A stretch of DNA of 64,000 nt from an uncultured bacterium (lineage in GTDB: Bacteria; DRYD01): the NCBI GenBank assembly GCA_937139605.1, contig CAKZQG010000002.1, positions 1-64,000 on the forward strand. The letters run 5' to 3'. Each line of letters opens with the position of its first letter. Positions within the stretch are counted from its first letter, which is position 1. The position numbers were made by a program, and so were the translations under genes. This document shows positions 4,761-9,822 of the stretch, piece after piece. The notes below the pieces were generated by a model. The model was not told the DNA's origin. It did not search any database and saw only the letters and a list, made by a program, of their open reading frames with translations.

Positions 4761-6092
4761 TTAAAGCTTAAATATTTTTTTTACTTGATATAAAGCTTGA
4801 ATTAAGGTATCTATTTCATTTGATATATTGTAAAAAGCTAAACTAACTCTACAGGTAGAATCTACGTTAAGTTTTTTATTTATTAATTGAGCACAATGAT
4901 GCCCAACCCTTATAACTATTCCATAATTATCTAATACAGTAGAAACATCATGGGAATGCACGTTCTTTACATTAAAAGGAACTATTCCAAAACGATTTCT
5001 ACTAACTTCATTTCTATCATAACCATATAATTCTATAAACCCTAATTCTTGTAATTTATTAACTAAATATTTTGTTAATTTTATTTCATAAGTTTTATAG
5101 TCGTAATAGTTTATATTTTCAAGATAGTTAATAACATGAGAAAACGAGTATATTTGAGATATAGCGGGTGTCCCTGGTTCAAAATAATAAGGGAACCCTA
5201 ATAAACCTATATCTATTAAATTTTCATCAATATTAACTTTTGATACTATTCCACCTCCTGCAAAGGCAGGAGTTTTAGTTTGTAAATTTTTAAAATGTTT
5301 TTTATTAATATAGACTACCCCTAAGCCAGTTGGACCGTATAACTTATGAGCACTAAATACCAGAAAATCTATATCTATTTTTTTAGTATCTATTTCATTA
5401 TGGACTATTCCTTGTGCAGCATCTATTAATAACATTATCCCTTTGTCTTTTACTATATTTGATATACTTTCTATGTTATTGACAACACCTAAAACATTCG
5501 ACATATAGGTTATTGATATAACTTTTGTTTTTGGAGTTATTAATTTTTCTAAATCATTTAAATCTAATTCTAAGTTGTTATTCAATTTCCATATTTTTAT
5601 TTTAAAATTAAATATTTTGGATAAGTAGGTAAAAGGTAGTAAATTAGAATGGTGTTCCATTTGAGTTAATATAACTTCATCGTTTTCTTTTAAGTAATTA
5701 TATGCTAAAAATAAAGCAAGGTAATTAAGTCCGTAGGTAGCGTTATATGTAAAAAAAATCTCATTAAAATTAGAATTGATAAATTTTGAGATAATATCTC
5801 TTGATTTATCAAGTAATTCAGTTGTATGAAATGAGAATTTACTAGCACTTCTATTAACATTGGAATAGTATTTTTCTAAGAATTCCTTTTCTTTTTCTAG
5901 TAGTATATATGGTTTTTGTGTAGTAGCTGCATTATCTAAATATACTATTTCTGGATTATTTTTGAAAAAAGGGAAATCTGCCCTTATTTTTTGGACTTTT
6001 TCCTTTTCAATTATCCTTAAATCAGTTAATATATCATCCTTTAATATACCATTGTTTAATACATCATCGTTTTTTTTCATTTTATTATTCAC
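4761..6092 (-). CDS. sufS: cysteine desulfurase, SufS type
   Basis: This 443-aa PLP enzyme removes sulfur from cysteine for Fe-S cluster assembly. Family motifs are all present: YLDNAATTQKP near the N-terminus, the HHSNLLP block, DAAQGIVH, and the PLP lysine in FSAHKLYGPTGLG. The catalytic cysteine is in VGHHCAQ, followed by CRVSLAFYN. An extra 35-40 residues precede the usual start, so the true start may be at a later Met; the present start has an AAGGTGA ribosome site. The group II (SufS) features and the nearby SufU scaffold support a SUF-type pair. It lies upstream of nothing in its own direction, with pgk immediately before it (48 bp gap), so both may be cotranscribed. Confidence 0.92.
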   Translation of the reverse strand: MNNKMKKNDDVLNNGILKDDILTDLRIIEKEKVQKIRADFPFFKNNPEIVYLDNAATTQKPYILLEKEKEFLEKYYSNVNRSASKFSFHTTELLDKSRDIISKFINSNFNEIFFTYNATYGLNYLALFLAYNYLKENDEVILTQMEHHSNLLPFTYLSKIFNFKIKIWKLNNNLELDLNDLEKLITPKTKVISITYMSNVLGVVNNIESISNIVKDKGIMLLIDAAQGIVHNEIDTKKIDIDFLVFSAHKLYGPTGLGVVYINKKHFKNLQTKTPAFAGGGIVSKVNIDENLIDIGLLGFPYYFEPGTPAISQIYSFSHVINYLENINYYDYKTYEIKLTKYLVNKLQELGFIELYGYDRNEVSRNRFGIVPFNVKNVHSHDVSTVLDNYGIVIRVGHHCAQLINKKLNVDSTCRVSLAFYNISNEIDTLIQALYQVKKIFKL

Positions 6093-6140: not shown

Positions 6141-7319
6141 TTAGATAGTTGTTTTGAGTTTAAGGATATACTCTATTGCATCTAATGTTTCTTTTTCTAA
6201 GAATTCTAAAGTAGCTCCCCCACCAGTTGAAATAAAATCTATTTTATTTTTATATTCTACAGTAGAATTTATGAAATTAACAGTATCACCACCACCAATT
6301 ACTTTAAAAGCATTAGATTCTGATAATAGTTTAGCTATTTCAATGCTACCTTCATTATAACCTTTTTCGAATATCCCACTTGGTCCATTCCAAAAAATGG
6401 TGTTTGAATCCAAAATAGCTTTTCTTATATCTTCATTAATTAATGCATCTACTATTATGTCATTATCTCCTATATCTTTTATATTTTTCTTAATTTTATA
6501 TGAAGGATTATCTATGTTATCAACTACTATAAATTCTGTAGGCAATATTATCAAATTGTTATTTAAAATATTGGAGACATCAGTTTCTTCAAAAAATGAT
6601 TTACCGATATTAAAATTAAGGGATTTATATAAGGTTAGGCAAGCTGCTCCCGTTATAACCATTTTATCACATTTTGTTAATAAATTTTTTATTAAATTTA
6701 ATTTATCTGAAACTTTAGCTCCCCCTAAAATAATTAAGTATGGCCTTTTAGGAGTTAATAGTTTAGATAAATTAAGAATCTCTTCTTTAACTAATAATCC
6801 AAAATATGTTGGTAGGTAATTGGAGATTCCTGCTACTGAGGAATGTACTCTGTGTAAGGAACCAAAAGCATCATTCACAAAAATATCTCCTAAATTTGCA
6901 AATTTTTTAGCTAATTCTAAATCGTTTTTAGTCTCCCCATTGAAAAATCTAACATTCTCAACTAAATAAATATTCCTACCTTTATAATCTATTTTTATAT
7001 TAATATCTTCTATAAATTCAAAATTATTGCAATTAAATAAATTGTTTTCTTTTATAAAATTAAAGATAGTTTTGGTAGTATATTTTAGTTTATCTTCTTC
7101 TGTTTTAGGCCTTCCTAAGTGAGTTAGTAAAATTATATCGTTATTTTTCTCTATCAAAAAATTTATAGTTTTTAAAGAATTAATTATTCTTGTTGGATCT
7201 ACTACTTTATTGTTTTTTATGGGAACATTATAATCAACTCTTAATATAATCCTTTTATTAACTAATAAATCAGTTTTACTATCTATGAATAAATCATTTA
7301 GTTTATTTAATATGCTCAT
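6141..7319 (-). CDS. pgk: phosphoglycerate kinase
   Basis: This 392-aa cytoplasmic enzyme transfers phosphate from 1,3-bisphosphoglycerate to ADP in glycolysis. Visible motifs in order: RVDYNVPIKNNKV, LLTHLGRPK, the FVNDAFGSLHRVHSSVAGI segment, LGGAKVSDKL, FWNGPSGIFE and the nucleotide-binding IGGGDTVNFI and STGGGATLEFL. Length is normal. The ATG at 7319 is preceded by an AGGGGGTT ribosome site. Transcription is divergent from the D-2-hydroxyacid dehydrogenase, with a 172-bp shared upstream region. The next glycolytic gene in the window, tpiA, is 51 kb away. Very secure. Confidence 0.97.
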   Translation of the reverse strand: MSILNKLNDLFIDSKTDLLVNKRIILRVDYNVPIKNNKVVDPTRIINSLKTINFLIEKNNDIILLTHLGRPKTEEDKLKYTTKTIFNFIKENNLFNCNNFEFIEDINIKIDYKGRNIYLVENVRFFNGETKNDLELAKKFANLGDIFVNDAFGSLHRVHSSVAGISNYLPTYFGLLVKEEILNLSKLLTPKRPYLIILGGAKVSDKLNLIKNLLTKCDKMVITGAACLTLYKSLNFNIGKSFFEETDVSNILNNNLIILPTEFIVVDNIDNPSYKIKKNIKDIGDNDIIVDALINEDIRKAILDSNTIFWNGPSGIFEKGYNEGSIEIAKLLSESNAFKVIGGGDTVNFINSTVEYKNKIDFISTGGGATLEFLEKETLDAIEYILKLKTTI

Positions 7320-7491
7320 TGCTAACCCCCTAGTTTTTTACTTTTATTTACTATATTTTACATTTTTATATTCTTTAAAAAAGTATTTACCCCTTTAATA
7401 ATAATGATATTCTAAGGATTAATTTGAGTAATTAAAAGAAGGATAAAATATTAAAATAGAAAATAAATTAAAAAGGGAAAGGATAAAAGCT

Positions 7492-8481
7492 ATGGAGATT
7501 AGTAATCTTAAAAATAATTTAACAATAAGCATCTCCTATAAACCTAAAGAAGAGGAAATTAAAATAATAAAAAAAGAGTTAGAAAGTATTTCAAGTTTAT
7601 TTTTTCTCTATGAATTGGATAATGATAAACGAATTGAAGTCCTAAAAAATACCGATATTCTTGTCACTTTTTTCCCTGAAAAAGAATTATCTAAAACAGA
7701 ATTAGAGATTTTAAAAAATTCAAAAAAATTAAGATTAGTACAATGTATATTATCTGGGATAGATCATATAGATTTTAATATTTTTCCTAATGTTAAAATT
7801 TTGGGTAATAGTGGTGGTTATGCTGTAATGATTGCTGAACATGTATTTGGCTTTATTTTATATTTTGGTAAAAATATTCAAAAAAATCATGAAAATTTAA
7901 GAAATGGGATATATAAACAAAATACAGATAATATTTTACTTAAAGGAAAGACTATAGGGATATTAGGATATGGTGGGATAGGGAAAGAAGTTGCTAAGCT
8001 ATCTAAAGCTTTTGGGATGTATGTTATTGGAATAAATACCACTGCAAAAACTGATGATTCCAATGTAGATGAAATATATACTCTACAAAACTTACATTAT
8101 GTTCTTAAAAAATCGGATATATTAGTTATATCATTACCTTTAAATAAAGAAACTGAAAATCTTATAAATTATGAGAAATTGAGTTTAATGAAACCGAATG
8201 CTATACTAATAAATGTAGGAAGAGGAAAAATAATTAATCAAAAAGATTTATATTATTTTTTAAAAGAGAATAAGGATTTTAAAGTAGCATTGGATGTTTG
8301 GTGGAAAGAACCAGCTTTTAATGAACCGTTTGAGTTAGAATATCCTTTTTTTGAGTTACCTAATTTTTTAGGAAGCCCACATATAACTGCTTTAACTAAG
8401 GAAACTTATGAAATTAGAACAAAGAATTATATTAATATAATAAAGGGTTTTATTGAAGCGGGGTGTAGCTTAGCTTGGTAG
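7492..8481 (+). CDS. D-2-hydroxyacid dehydrogenase, NAD-binding
   Basis: This 329-aa protein belongs to the D-isomer-specific 2-hydroxyacid dehydrogenases. The Rossmann motif is GILGYGGIGKEVAKL. The catalytic Arg/Glu/His region is seen as NVGRGKIINQ, VALDVWWKEP and SPHITALTKET. Substrate is not predictable. The C-terminus is unusual: the reading frame runs 23 nt into the downstream tRNA-Pro, and the TAG stop at 8479-8481 is formed by the tRNA D-loop. Thus the last residues (GCSLAW) are coded by tRNA sequence. RNase P cleavage at the tRNA 5' end would remove the stop codon from the message. No terminator separates it from the tRNA and dnaA. Confidence 0.88.
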   Translation: MEISNLKNNLTISISYKPKEEEIKIIKKELESISSLFFLYELDNDKRIEVLKNTDILVTFFPEKELSKTELEILKNSKKLRLVQCILSGIDHIDFNIFPNVKILGNSGGYAVMIAEHVFGFILYFGKNIQKNHENLRNGIYKQNTDNILLKGKTIGILGYGGIGKEVAKLSKAFGMYVIGINTTAKTDDSNVDEIYTLQNLHYVLKKSDILVISLPLNKETENLINYEKLSLMKPNAILINVGRGKIINQKDLYYFLKENKDFKVALDVWWKEPAFNEPFELEYPFFELPNFLGSPHITALTKETYEIRTKNYINIIKGFIEAGCSLAW

Positions 8482-8532
8482 AGCGCCATGTTCGGGACGT
8501 GGAGGTCGTGGGTTCAAATCCCACCACCCCGA
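8459..8532 (+). tRNA. tRNA-Pro (CGG)
   Basis: A 74-nt cloverleaf: acceptor CGGGGTG pairs with CACCCCG, discriminator A at 8532, and CCA is not encoded. The anticodon stem CCATG/CGTGG holds the loop TTCGGGA, giving anticodon CGG for CCG codons. The T arm is GTGGG-TTCAAAT-CCCAC. Its first 23 nt are also the end of the dehydrogenase frame. The dnaA start codon is 9 nt after its 3' end. Confidence 0.97.
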
Positions 8533-8541
8533 AATTATTAT

Positions 8542-9822
8542 ATGATCCCCCAAGATTTTATTGATACTTTTATAGAAGAATTAGGACAGGTAGCTTATGA
8601 TATATGCTTTAATTTATCTTCTACTACTTTAGATTTCAATTCTAAAGTTATAAAAATAATAACTAATGATAAATCTTTAAAAGATTGGATAGAAAATAAA
8701 TATGTACCTATAATTTCTGAGATACTTGAGAAAACATATGGAGAACATTGGAGGGTTGAATTGTTTTTAGATACCCAAGGGGAATTAGAAACAACAGAAT
8801 ATAATGAACAATTAAACCCATTTTTTACCTTTGAGAATTTTGTTGTAGGTAATAGTAATCAGTTTGCTTATGCGGCTTCATTAGCAGTAGCTCAAAAACC
8901 TGGAAAAACCTATAACCCATTATTTATTTATGGATCAACGGGATTAGGGAAAACCCATTTAATGCATGCTATCGGAAATTACTTAAGTCGTAAAAAAAAC
9001 ACTAAAAAAATAATATATATAAGTAGCGAAAAATTTGTTAATGATTTAATAAATTCAATAAAAGAAAAGAAAATAGAAGATTTTAGAAATAAATATAGGA
9101 AATCAGATTTAATATTAATAGATGATATCCAGTTTATAGTTGGTAAAGAAAGAACTCAAGAAGAACTTTTTCATACTTTTAATGAATTATATTTATCTAA
9201 TAAGCAGATAGTAATAACAAGTGATAGGTCTCCTAAGGATTTAGAAGGTATAGAAGATAGATTAAGATCTAGATTTCAGGGGGGATTAATTGCTGATGTG
9301 CAGTTACCTGATTTTGAAACACGTAAAGCCATTGTTAAGAAAAAACTAGAGAGATATGATATAGAATTAGAAGATAGCGTATTAGATTATTTAGCGCAGA
9401 ATTTCAGAGATAATGTTAGAGAATTGGAAGGAGCTCTTTTAAAAATAATCGCTTTTTCTGATATAGAAAATATAAAAAAGGTTTCACTAGATAAAGCAAA
9501 AGAAATTCTTAAGGATTTAATTGATAAAAATTCTCAAATAGATGTTGAAGATATCTTAGAAGTTGTTTTGAATTACTTTAATATTACTAAAGATGAATTA
9601 TTTTCTAATTCTAGAGAAAAGAAAATAGTTTATCCTCGACAAGTATTTACTTATTTATTAAGAGATATTTTAGGCTTACCTTTTAAAAATATTGGAAACA
9701 TTTTAGGGGGAAAAGATCATACTACCGTTATGCATGCTTATGAAAAAATTAATATTATGTTAGCTAGTCCTAAAGTATATAATGACATATACTCTATTAA
9801 GAGAATATTAAATAGAAATTAA
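8542..9822 (+). CDS. dnaA: chromosomal replication initiator DnaA
   Basis: DnaA binds DnaA boxes at the origin and opens it as an ATP-dependent oligomer. I place the start at ATG 8542 (426 aa, beginning MIPQDF), because the frame can be extended only into the tRNA. Domain I is short. The AAA+ domain has Walker A (GSTGLGKTH), Walker B (LILIDDIQF) and the sensor-II region RDNVRELEGAL. Domain IV ends with the DNA-binding signature GGKDHTTVMHAYEKI. No Shine-Dalgarno is visible; the purine-rich GGAGGT at 8501 is inside the tRNA and too far. After tRNA 3' processing the message would have only a 9-nt leader. dnaN does not follow; a PQ-loop gene begins 4 nt after the stop. I saw no cluster of TTATCCACA-like boxes nearby. 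Confidence 0.96.
   Translation: MIPQDFIDTFIEELGQVAYDICFNLSSTTLDFNSKVIKIITNDKSLKDWIENKYVPIISEILEKTYGEHWRVELFLDTQGELETTEYNEQLNPFFTFENFVVGNSNQFAYAASLAVAQKPGKTYNPLFIYGSTGLGKTHLMHAIGNYLSRKKNTKKIIYISSEKFVNDLINSIKEKKIEDFRNKYRKSDLILIDDIQFIVGKERTQEELFHTFNELYLSNKQIVITSDRSPKDLEGIEDRLRSRFQGGLIADVQLPDFETRKAIVKKKLERYDIELEDSVLDYLAQNFRDNVRELEGALLKIIAFSDIENIKKVSLDKAKEILKDLIDKNSQIDVEDILEVVLNYFNITKDELFSNSREKKIVYPRQVFTYLLRDILGLPFKNIGNILGGKDHTTVMHAYEKINIMLASPKVYNDIYSIKRILNRN

Follow-up and report, generated by a model that had tools for sequence, protein, structure and literature searches.

The dnaA gene of this hot-spring bacterium stands 9 nt behind a tRNA-Pro gene on the same strand, and comparable tRNA-gene junctions recur at high frequency in the related genomes that we examined. 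Judged from the sequences, we consider it probable (roughly 60%) that this locus exemplifies an arrangement found throughout the family and amounting to tRNA punctuation in a bacterium: tRNA-Pro and dnaA would be co-transcribed, and excision of the tRNA would create a dnaA mRNA with a very short leader. The layout itself, its frequency, the absence of Shine-Dalgarno (SD) sequences, the fact that two genera share it and the occurrence of RNase P RNA can be read directly from the genomes, while the steps of transcription, cutting and initiation that would join them into a mechanism are predicted.

The window, by which we mean the whole stretch of DNA that was analysed, comprises 64,000 nt of the forward strand of contig CAKZQG010000002.1 (GCA_937139605.1), with the locus of interest at 7492-9822 (Table 1). 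It belongs to a genome of 1.9 Mb (G000) that is a member of the Candidatus Calescibacterium family. Relatives used for comparison were RSWP7 (G001; locus L031), which falls in the same genus as G000, together with G002, a Candidatus Calescibacterium assembly (G003; L033) and SKW172 (G005; L032), which make up a second genus; the family is represented by drafts, either metagenome assemblies or fragmented genomes, that are 79-90% complete. The L031 contig (JAPYWL010000001.1) is recorded as Deltaproteobacteria RSWP7, yet it matches the window's genus, with 85% DnaA identity and a shared gene order.

Table 1 Features of the dnaA locus, with positions counted from the first nucleotide of the window
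Feature	Position	Strand	Basis or remark
Phosphoglycerate kinase gene (named by eye from sequence)	6141-7319	-	Divergent neighbour; orthologue equally placed and divergent in G001
Intergenic region, expected promoter site of the dehydrogenase-tRNA-dnaA unit	7320-7491	+	Aligns to DNA immediately 5' of tRNA-Pro-dnaA in G001
D-2-hydroxyacid dehydrogenase, 329 aa; final 7 codons and stop within the tRNA	7492-8481	+	ORF, PF02826
Overlap of dehydrogenase coding end and 5' part of the tRNA; stop TAG 8479-8481 in the D-arm	8459-8481	+	
tRNA-Pro(CGG), CCA not encoded	8459-8532	+	ARAGORN; Rfam RF00005; CCA test
9-nt AU-only tRNA-dnaA leader without SD	8533-8541	+	Predicted 5' end of dnaA mRNA after putative tRNA 3' processing
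dnaA, 426 aa	8542-9822	+	TIGR00362; residue-1 alignment with G001
Small membrane protein, 4 nt 3' of dnaA	9827-10108	+	Weak LAB_N-like match below the Pfam cut-off; same order in G001

The components of the locus were readily identified. ARAGORN and Rfam (65.7 bits) placed the tRNA alike, and DnaA scored 488.4 bits against a cut-off of 343.9 with its equivalog model. The dehydrogenase matched PF02826 (166.7 bits, E 4e-49) and PF00389 (35.9 bits) and reached no NCBIfam equivalog cut-off, thus leaving its substrate unassigned by profile search. The complete tRNA-dnaA spacer reads AATTATTAT, and no SD word was found upstream of the dnaA ATG at 8542. An initial annotation of this DNA had given the same coordinates for the tRNA, the dehydrogenase stop inside it, the dnaA ATG and the SD-less 9-nt leader, all of which proved exact; it had also located the TAG codon in the D-loop, and here we agree that the codon lies within the tRNA and assign it to the D-arm. 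The small membrane protein behind dnaA is probably carried on the same transcript. No terminator-like site was found in 7300-8600, promoter-like matches across the region (11, vs 9.2 in shuffled sequence) are at chance level, and the RNA fold of tRNA plus leader was uninformative (z -1.2).

Comparison of the tRNA-dnaA order in related genomes, which the initial annotation had proposed, revealed that a tRNA is retained 8-13 nt 5' of dnaA in all five family genomes in which dnaA is present. The identity of this tRNA differs by genus: it is Pro(CGG) in the window's genus, where it lies 13 nt 5' of dnaA in G001, and Arg(CCT) in the second, where it lies 8-11 nt ahead of dnaA in G002, G003 and G005. 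No gene other than dnaA was seen to follow one tRNA in the first genus and another in the second, and the tRNA-dnaA junction is either ancient or of two separate origins. A tRNA directly 5' of dnaA was found at none of 46 dnaA loci of other lineages. Given the genome-wide pattern described below, the tRNA-dnaA junction exceeds chance.

We surveyed all tRNAs of G000, G001 and G002 (n = 123), calling genes in the 3-17 kb around each with a simple hexamer-model caller and measuring the gaps. A coding sequence (CDS) on the same strand starts 5-25 nt after the tRNA in 57 of the 123 (18/42 in G000, 15/37 in G001 and 24/44 in G002); the remaining half or so of family tRNAs lack such a layout, and close CDS are fewer on the upstream side of tRNAs than downstream. 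The leaders have a median length of 12 nt and are 83% A+T. An SD match of at least 5 nt occurs in 0/57 leaders vs 30-40% of other long genes (Fisher p 1.3e-10) and a 4-nt match in 2/57; even roomy leaders, of at least 14 nt, contain a 4-nt match in just one of 22 cases (p 4e-5). Start codons of the tRNA-CDS pairs shared by G000 and G001 are backed by residue-1 alignments for nearly all. True starts farther 3' with an SD of their own were considered and rejected, being on offer within 30 codons in 3/57 junctions, all of them TTG.

When one simple rule was applied to all genomes, the layout was counted for 62/116 in the family, 3/19 in the order-level relative G006 and 9/138 in a control set of ten other-lineage genomes, one of which (G042) contributes 6/30, partly doubtful short ORFs; in an earlier counting round the excess of family over controls had a Fisher p of 1e-14. 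Gaps below 25 nt in controls occur at L305, L311, L321, L322 and other G042 and G016 loci, some with an SD, and a broader scan may reveal further lineages.

The genes behind these tRNAs have ordinary housekeeping roles: dnaA, infA, gatC, fabF, hemL, pilT, a DegP-like protease and recG in the window's genus, and topoisomerase I (topA), lspA, upp, transketolase, uroporphyrinogen decarboxylase and a pseudouridine synthase in G002. In all three genomes infA (IF-1) lies behind tRNA-Asp, at gaps of 11, 11 and 12 nt (L123 3586-3930; L192; L156). When G000 is compared with G002, 9/18 tRNAs have the same close downstream gene, as against 3/40 for the upstream neighbour and 4/24 for other downstream neighbours (p 6e-4 vs upstream, 8e-4 vs all other neighbours). 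By this measure, the unit conserved between genera is the tRNA-CDS pair.

We propose that tRNA-Pro and dnaA share a transcript, that a cut between the discriminator base and the leader would make the mature dnaA 5' end, and that SD-independent initiation would then take place at an AUG about 9 nt from this new end. An initiating 30S subunit normally covers the position of a folded tRNA that ends 9 nt 5' of the AUG, so that cutting would be needed before translation; more generally, a folded tRNA 5-13 nt ahead of the AUG would obstruct the 30S subunit until its removal, and about half of the tRNAs would serve as upstream processing marks of housekeeping mRNAs. At the window's locus, an RNase P cut made before the dehydrogenase had been fully read would cost the message residues 323-329 and the stop codon and would call for tmRNA rescue, whereas once a ribosome had finished on the dehydrogenase the tRNA would be free to fold, and both products might be obtained per transcript. 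The nearly leaderless dnaA message dependent on tRNA processing that the initial annotation predicted gains support from the family-wide pattern, from the conservation in five genomes and from a 9-nt leader too small for a promoter of normal geometry.

The same annotation had named RNase P and RNase Z as the processing enzymes, and the genomes bear out the first of these. RNase P RNA (RF00010) was above cut-off in G000, G001, G002, G003 and G005, and tmRNA was found in the family genomes searched. CCA is encoded in 6/123 tRNA genes, all six in G002, and with so few CCA-encoding tRNAs 3' processing must halt at the discriminator base. Searches of the same five drafts (79-90% complete) with TIGR02651, TIGR02650 and PF12706 revealed no canonical RNase Z; TIGR02651 had zero matches in G000, and its matches in G001 and G002 were other metallo-beta-lactamase proteins. 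Those proteins that matched RNase Z models were set aside, since we read them as glyoxalase-II-like, FprA-like and UlaG/UPF0173-like. A better candidate (TIGR02651, 50 bits) is held by G006. The failure to find a canonical RNase Z leaves the proposed mechanism with its largest gap; a divergent enzyme, a gap in the draft assemblies, or another endonuclease combined with trimming are possible explanations. The question raised is which nuclease cuts 3' of CCA-less tRNAs in a lineage without a recognisable RNase Z.

One may postulate instead that loss of spacer DNA passively brought tRNAs near to genes, such that the spacing has no role and uncut or randomly cut transcripts are translated by weak SD-independent initiation. 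This is compatible with the short gaps between CDS on the same strand (median 7 nt in G002), with upstream genes that likewise run near or into tRNAs, and with the lack of a 4-nt SD in 50-60% of other genes. We nevertheless regard it as unlikely given that median CDS-CDS gaps are 46 nt in G000 and 43.5 nt in G001 vs 12 nt between tRNA and CDS over three genomes, that SD sequences are missing even where the leader has room for them, and that between genera the downstream pair is preferentially kept, not the upstream one. A different proposal dispenses with tRNA processing by assigning the genes promoters of their own, with TTCAAA of the tRNA T-arm acting as -35 and the AT-rich leader supplying the -10; these promoters would yield leaderless primary transcripts. 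A 9/12 match with a 17-nt spacer does exist at 8513-8541, but it would start RNA at about 8548, beyond the dnaA ATG and with no in-frame start nearby thereafter; the geometry could not serve leaders of 10 nt or less (22/57 genes), promoter-like matches in the region stay at the shuffled level, and no positional -10 peak is seen. We judge this proposal highly improbable as a general account; where the leader reaches about 11 nt, a promoter formed by T-arm and leader is possible. A further candidate, the leaderless promoter motif TANNNT 5-9 nt before the start, was found for 65/266 SD-less genes vs 2/173 and was rejected as a composition effect on account of its flat positional profile.

The overlap of dehydrogenase and tRNA could also be a regulatory switch, which would set dehydrogenase synthesis against tRNA and dnaA maturation on one transcript and let tRNA processing determine the level of DnaA. 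The stop codon inside the tRNA, the 7 codons and stop that an RNase P cut would take off, the presence of tmRNA, and a macro-domain gene that likewise ends inside the dnaA-preceding tRNA in three genomes of the second genus all speak in its favour. Against this, same-genus G001 has tRNA-Pro-dnaA and lacks the dehydrogenase at that locus, the DNA 5' of its tRNA-Pro aligning with the DNA 5' of the window's dehydrogenase; the dehydrogenase orthologues in G002 (67% identity) and G003 (62%) lie directly downstream of tRNA-Pro(CGG), at a gap of 8 nt in G002, and end without a tRNA-coded tail; the conserved fold ends ahead of the tail, with the PF00389 match stopping at residue 323/329; and the upstream genes are unrelated between genera. 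We therefore find the switch quite improbable. The overlap is present in the window's genome only and, from these comparisons, looks like an incidental, possibly chance, single-genome addition upstream. The initial annotation had held that an orthologous dehydrogenase ending before the tRNA would indicate a chance overlap, and orthologues without the tail, together with the missing gene in G001, are what we found. Nor do the data support a link to tRNA processing that is peculiar to DnaA synthesis, since many unrelated housekeeping genes have the same layout.

Two further observations concern the genes around these tRNAs. tRNA-Pro(CGG) and the dehydrogenase adjoin in both genera, in reversed order and with pgk nearby in both (L057 1423-2445 compared with 7492-8532 of the window), an arrangement that points to duplication or rearrangement locally at this tRNA. 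The gene that ends inside tRNA-Arg(CCT) just 5' of dnaA in G002, G003 and G005, with the tail GVVAQKDRALPS, was named by eye and is presumably a macro-domain gene (5222-5770 on the minus strand of L146, where the tRNA occupies 5186-5260 on the same strand; the same in L032 and L033); it parallels the dehydrogenase overlap, the two upstream genes being unrelated.

The punctuation of animal mitochondrial transcripts by tRNAs, through RNase P and RNase Z, is well known (Ojala, Montoya and Attardi 1981, as cited in PMC10941002). The arrangement described here appears to work like it: tRNAs abut protein genes, excision would define mRNA ends, messages would be almost leaderless, and the upstream gene may lose its stop. 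It differs in that the downstream side alone is systematic, at about half of the tRNAs, in that leaders are 5-25 nt whereas mitochondrial ones are nearly absent, and in that it has full stop codons and occurs in a 1.9-Mb bacterial genome with many ordinary SD genes and no canonical RNase Z found. We do not class it as a member of that system because RNase Z was tested for and not found and the RNA ends are predicted ones. In bacteria, mixed tRNA-mRNA operons such as thrU-tyrU-glyT-thrT-tufB and metY-nusA are known from E. coli; to our knowledge such operons are few per genome, and their mRNA retains its own leader and SD. secG-leuU is another E. coli example (as cited in PMC3985628). Our predicted common transcript would resemble these in being parted by tRNA-processing enzymes, but differs from them as a genome-wide habit with SD-less leaders of 5-25 nt. 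Mycobacteria, Propionibacterium and Streptomyces have leaderless mRNAs with 5' ends that were mapped as primary starts of transcription (PMC4633059, PMC3848588, PMC4681348), and translation of these similarly initiates at or near the 5' end without an SD; here, in contrast, the ends would arise by tRNA excision, and the predicted distance to the AUG (9 nt for dnaA, 5-25 nt overall) can be set against a leaderless criterion of an AUG within about 5 nt of the 5' end. Searches of the open-licence literature brought up no description of bacterial tRNA punctuation on a genome-wide scale; as far as we could find, mRNA starts made by tRNA excision, well known in mitochondria, are apparently undescribed as a general bacterial habit.

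A further-reaching reading is more tentative, and we rate it below even odds: that a free-living bacterial lineage employs tRNA excision as its general route to housekeeping mRNA 5' ends (dnaA, infA, topA, gatC and others), with a non-canonical 3' enzyme and with tRNA maturation licensing the translation of growth genes. If so, tRNA processing in a bacterium would generate the 5' ends of mRNAs that serve replication (dnaA, topA), the initiation of translation (infA) and the charging of tRNAs (gatC), growth genes would be coupled to tRNA output by layout alone, and a mitochondrial system would have a free-living parallel.

The layout also bears on annotation. The mechanical ORF for dnaA extends back to an ATG at 8488 inside the tRNA (MFGTWRSWVQIPPPRNYY...; extra part 8488-8541), a start that we rejected as the extension is without conservation; the G000 and G001 proteins align residue 1 to residue 1 from the ATG at 8542. 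ORF callers that stretch such genes into the tRNA are a likely type of annotation error in this family, of which annotators should be warned.
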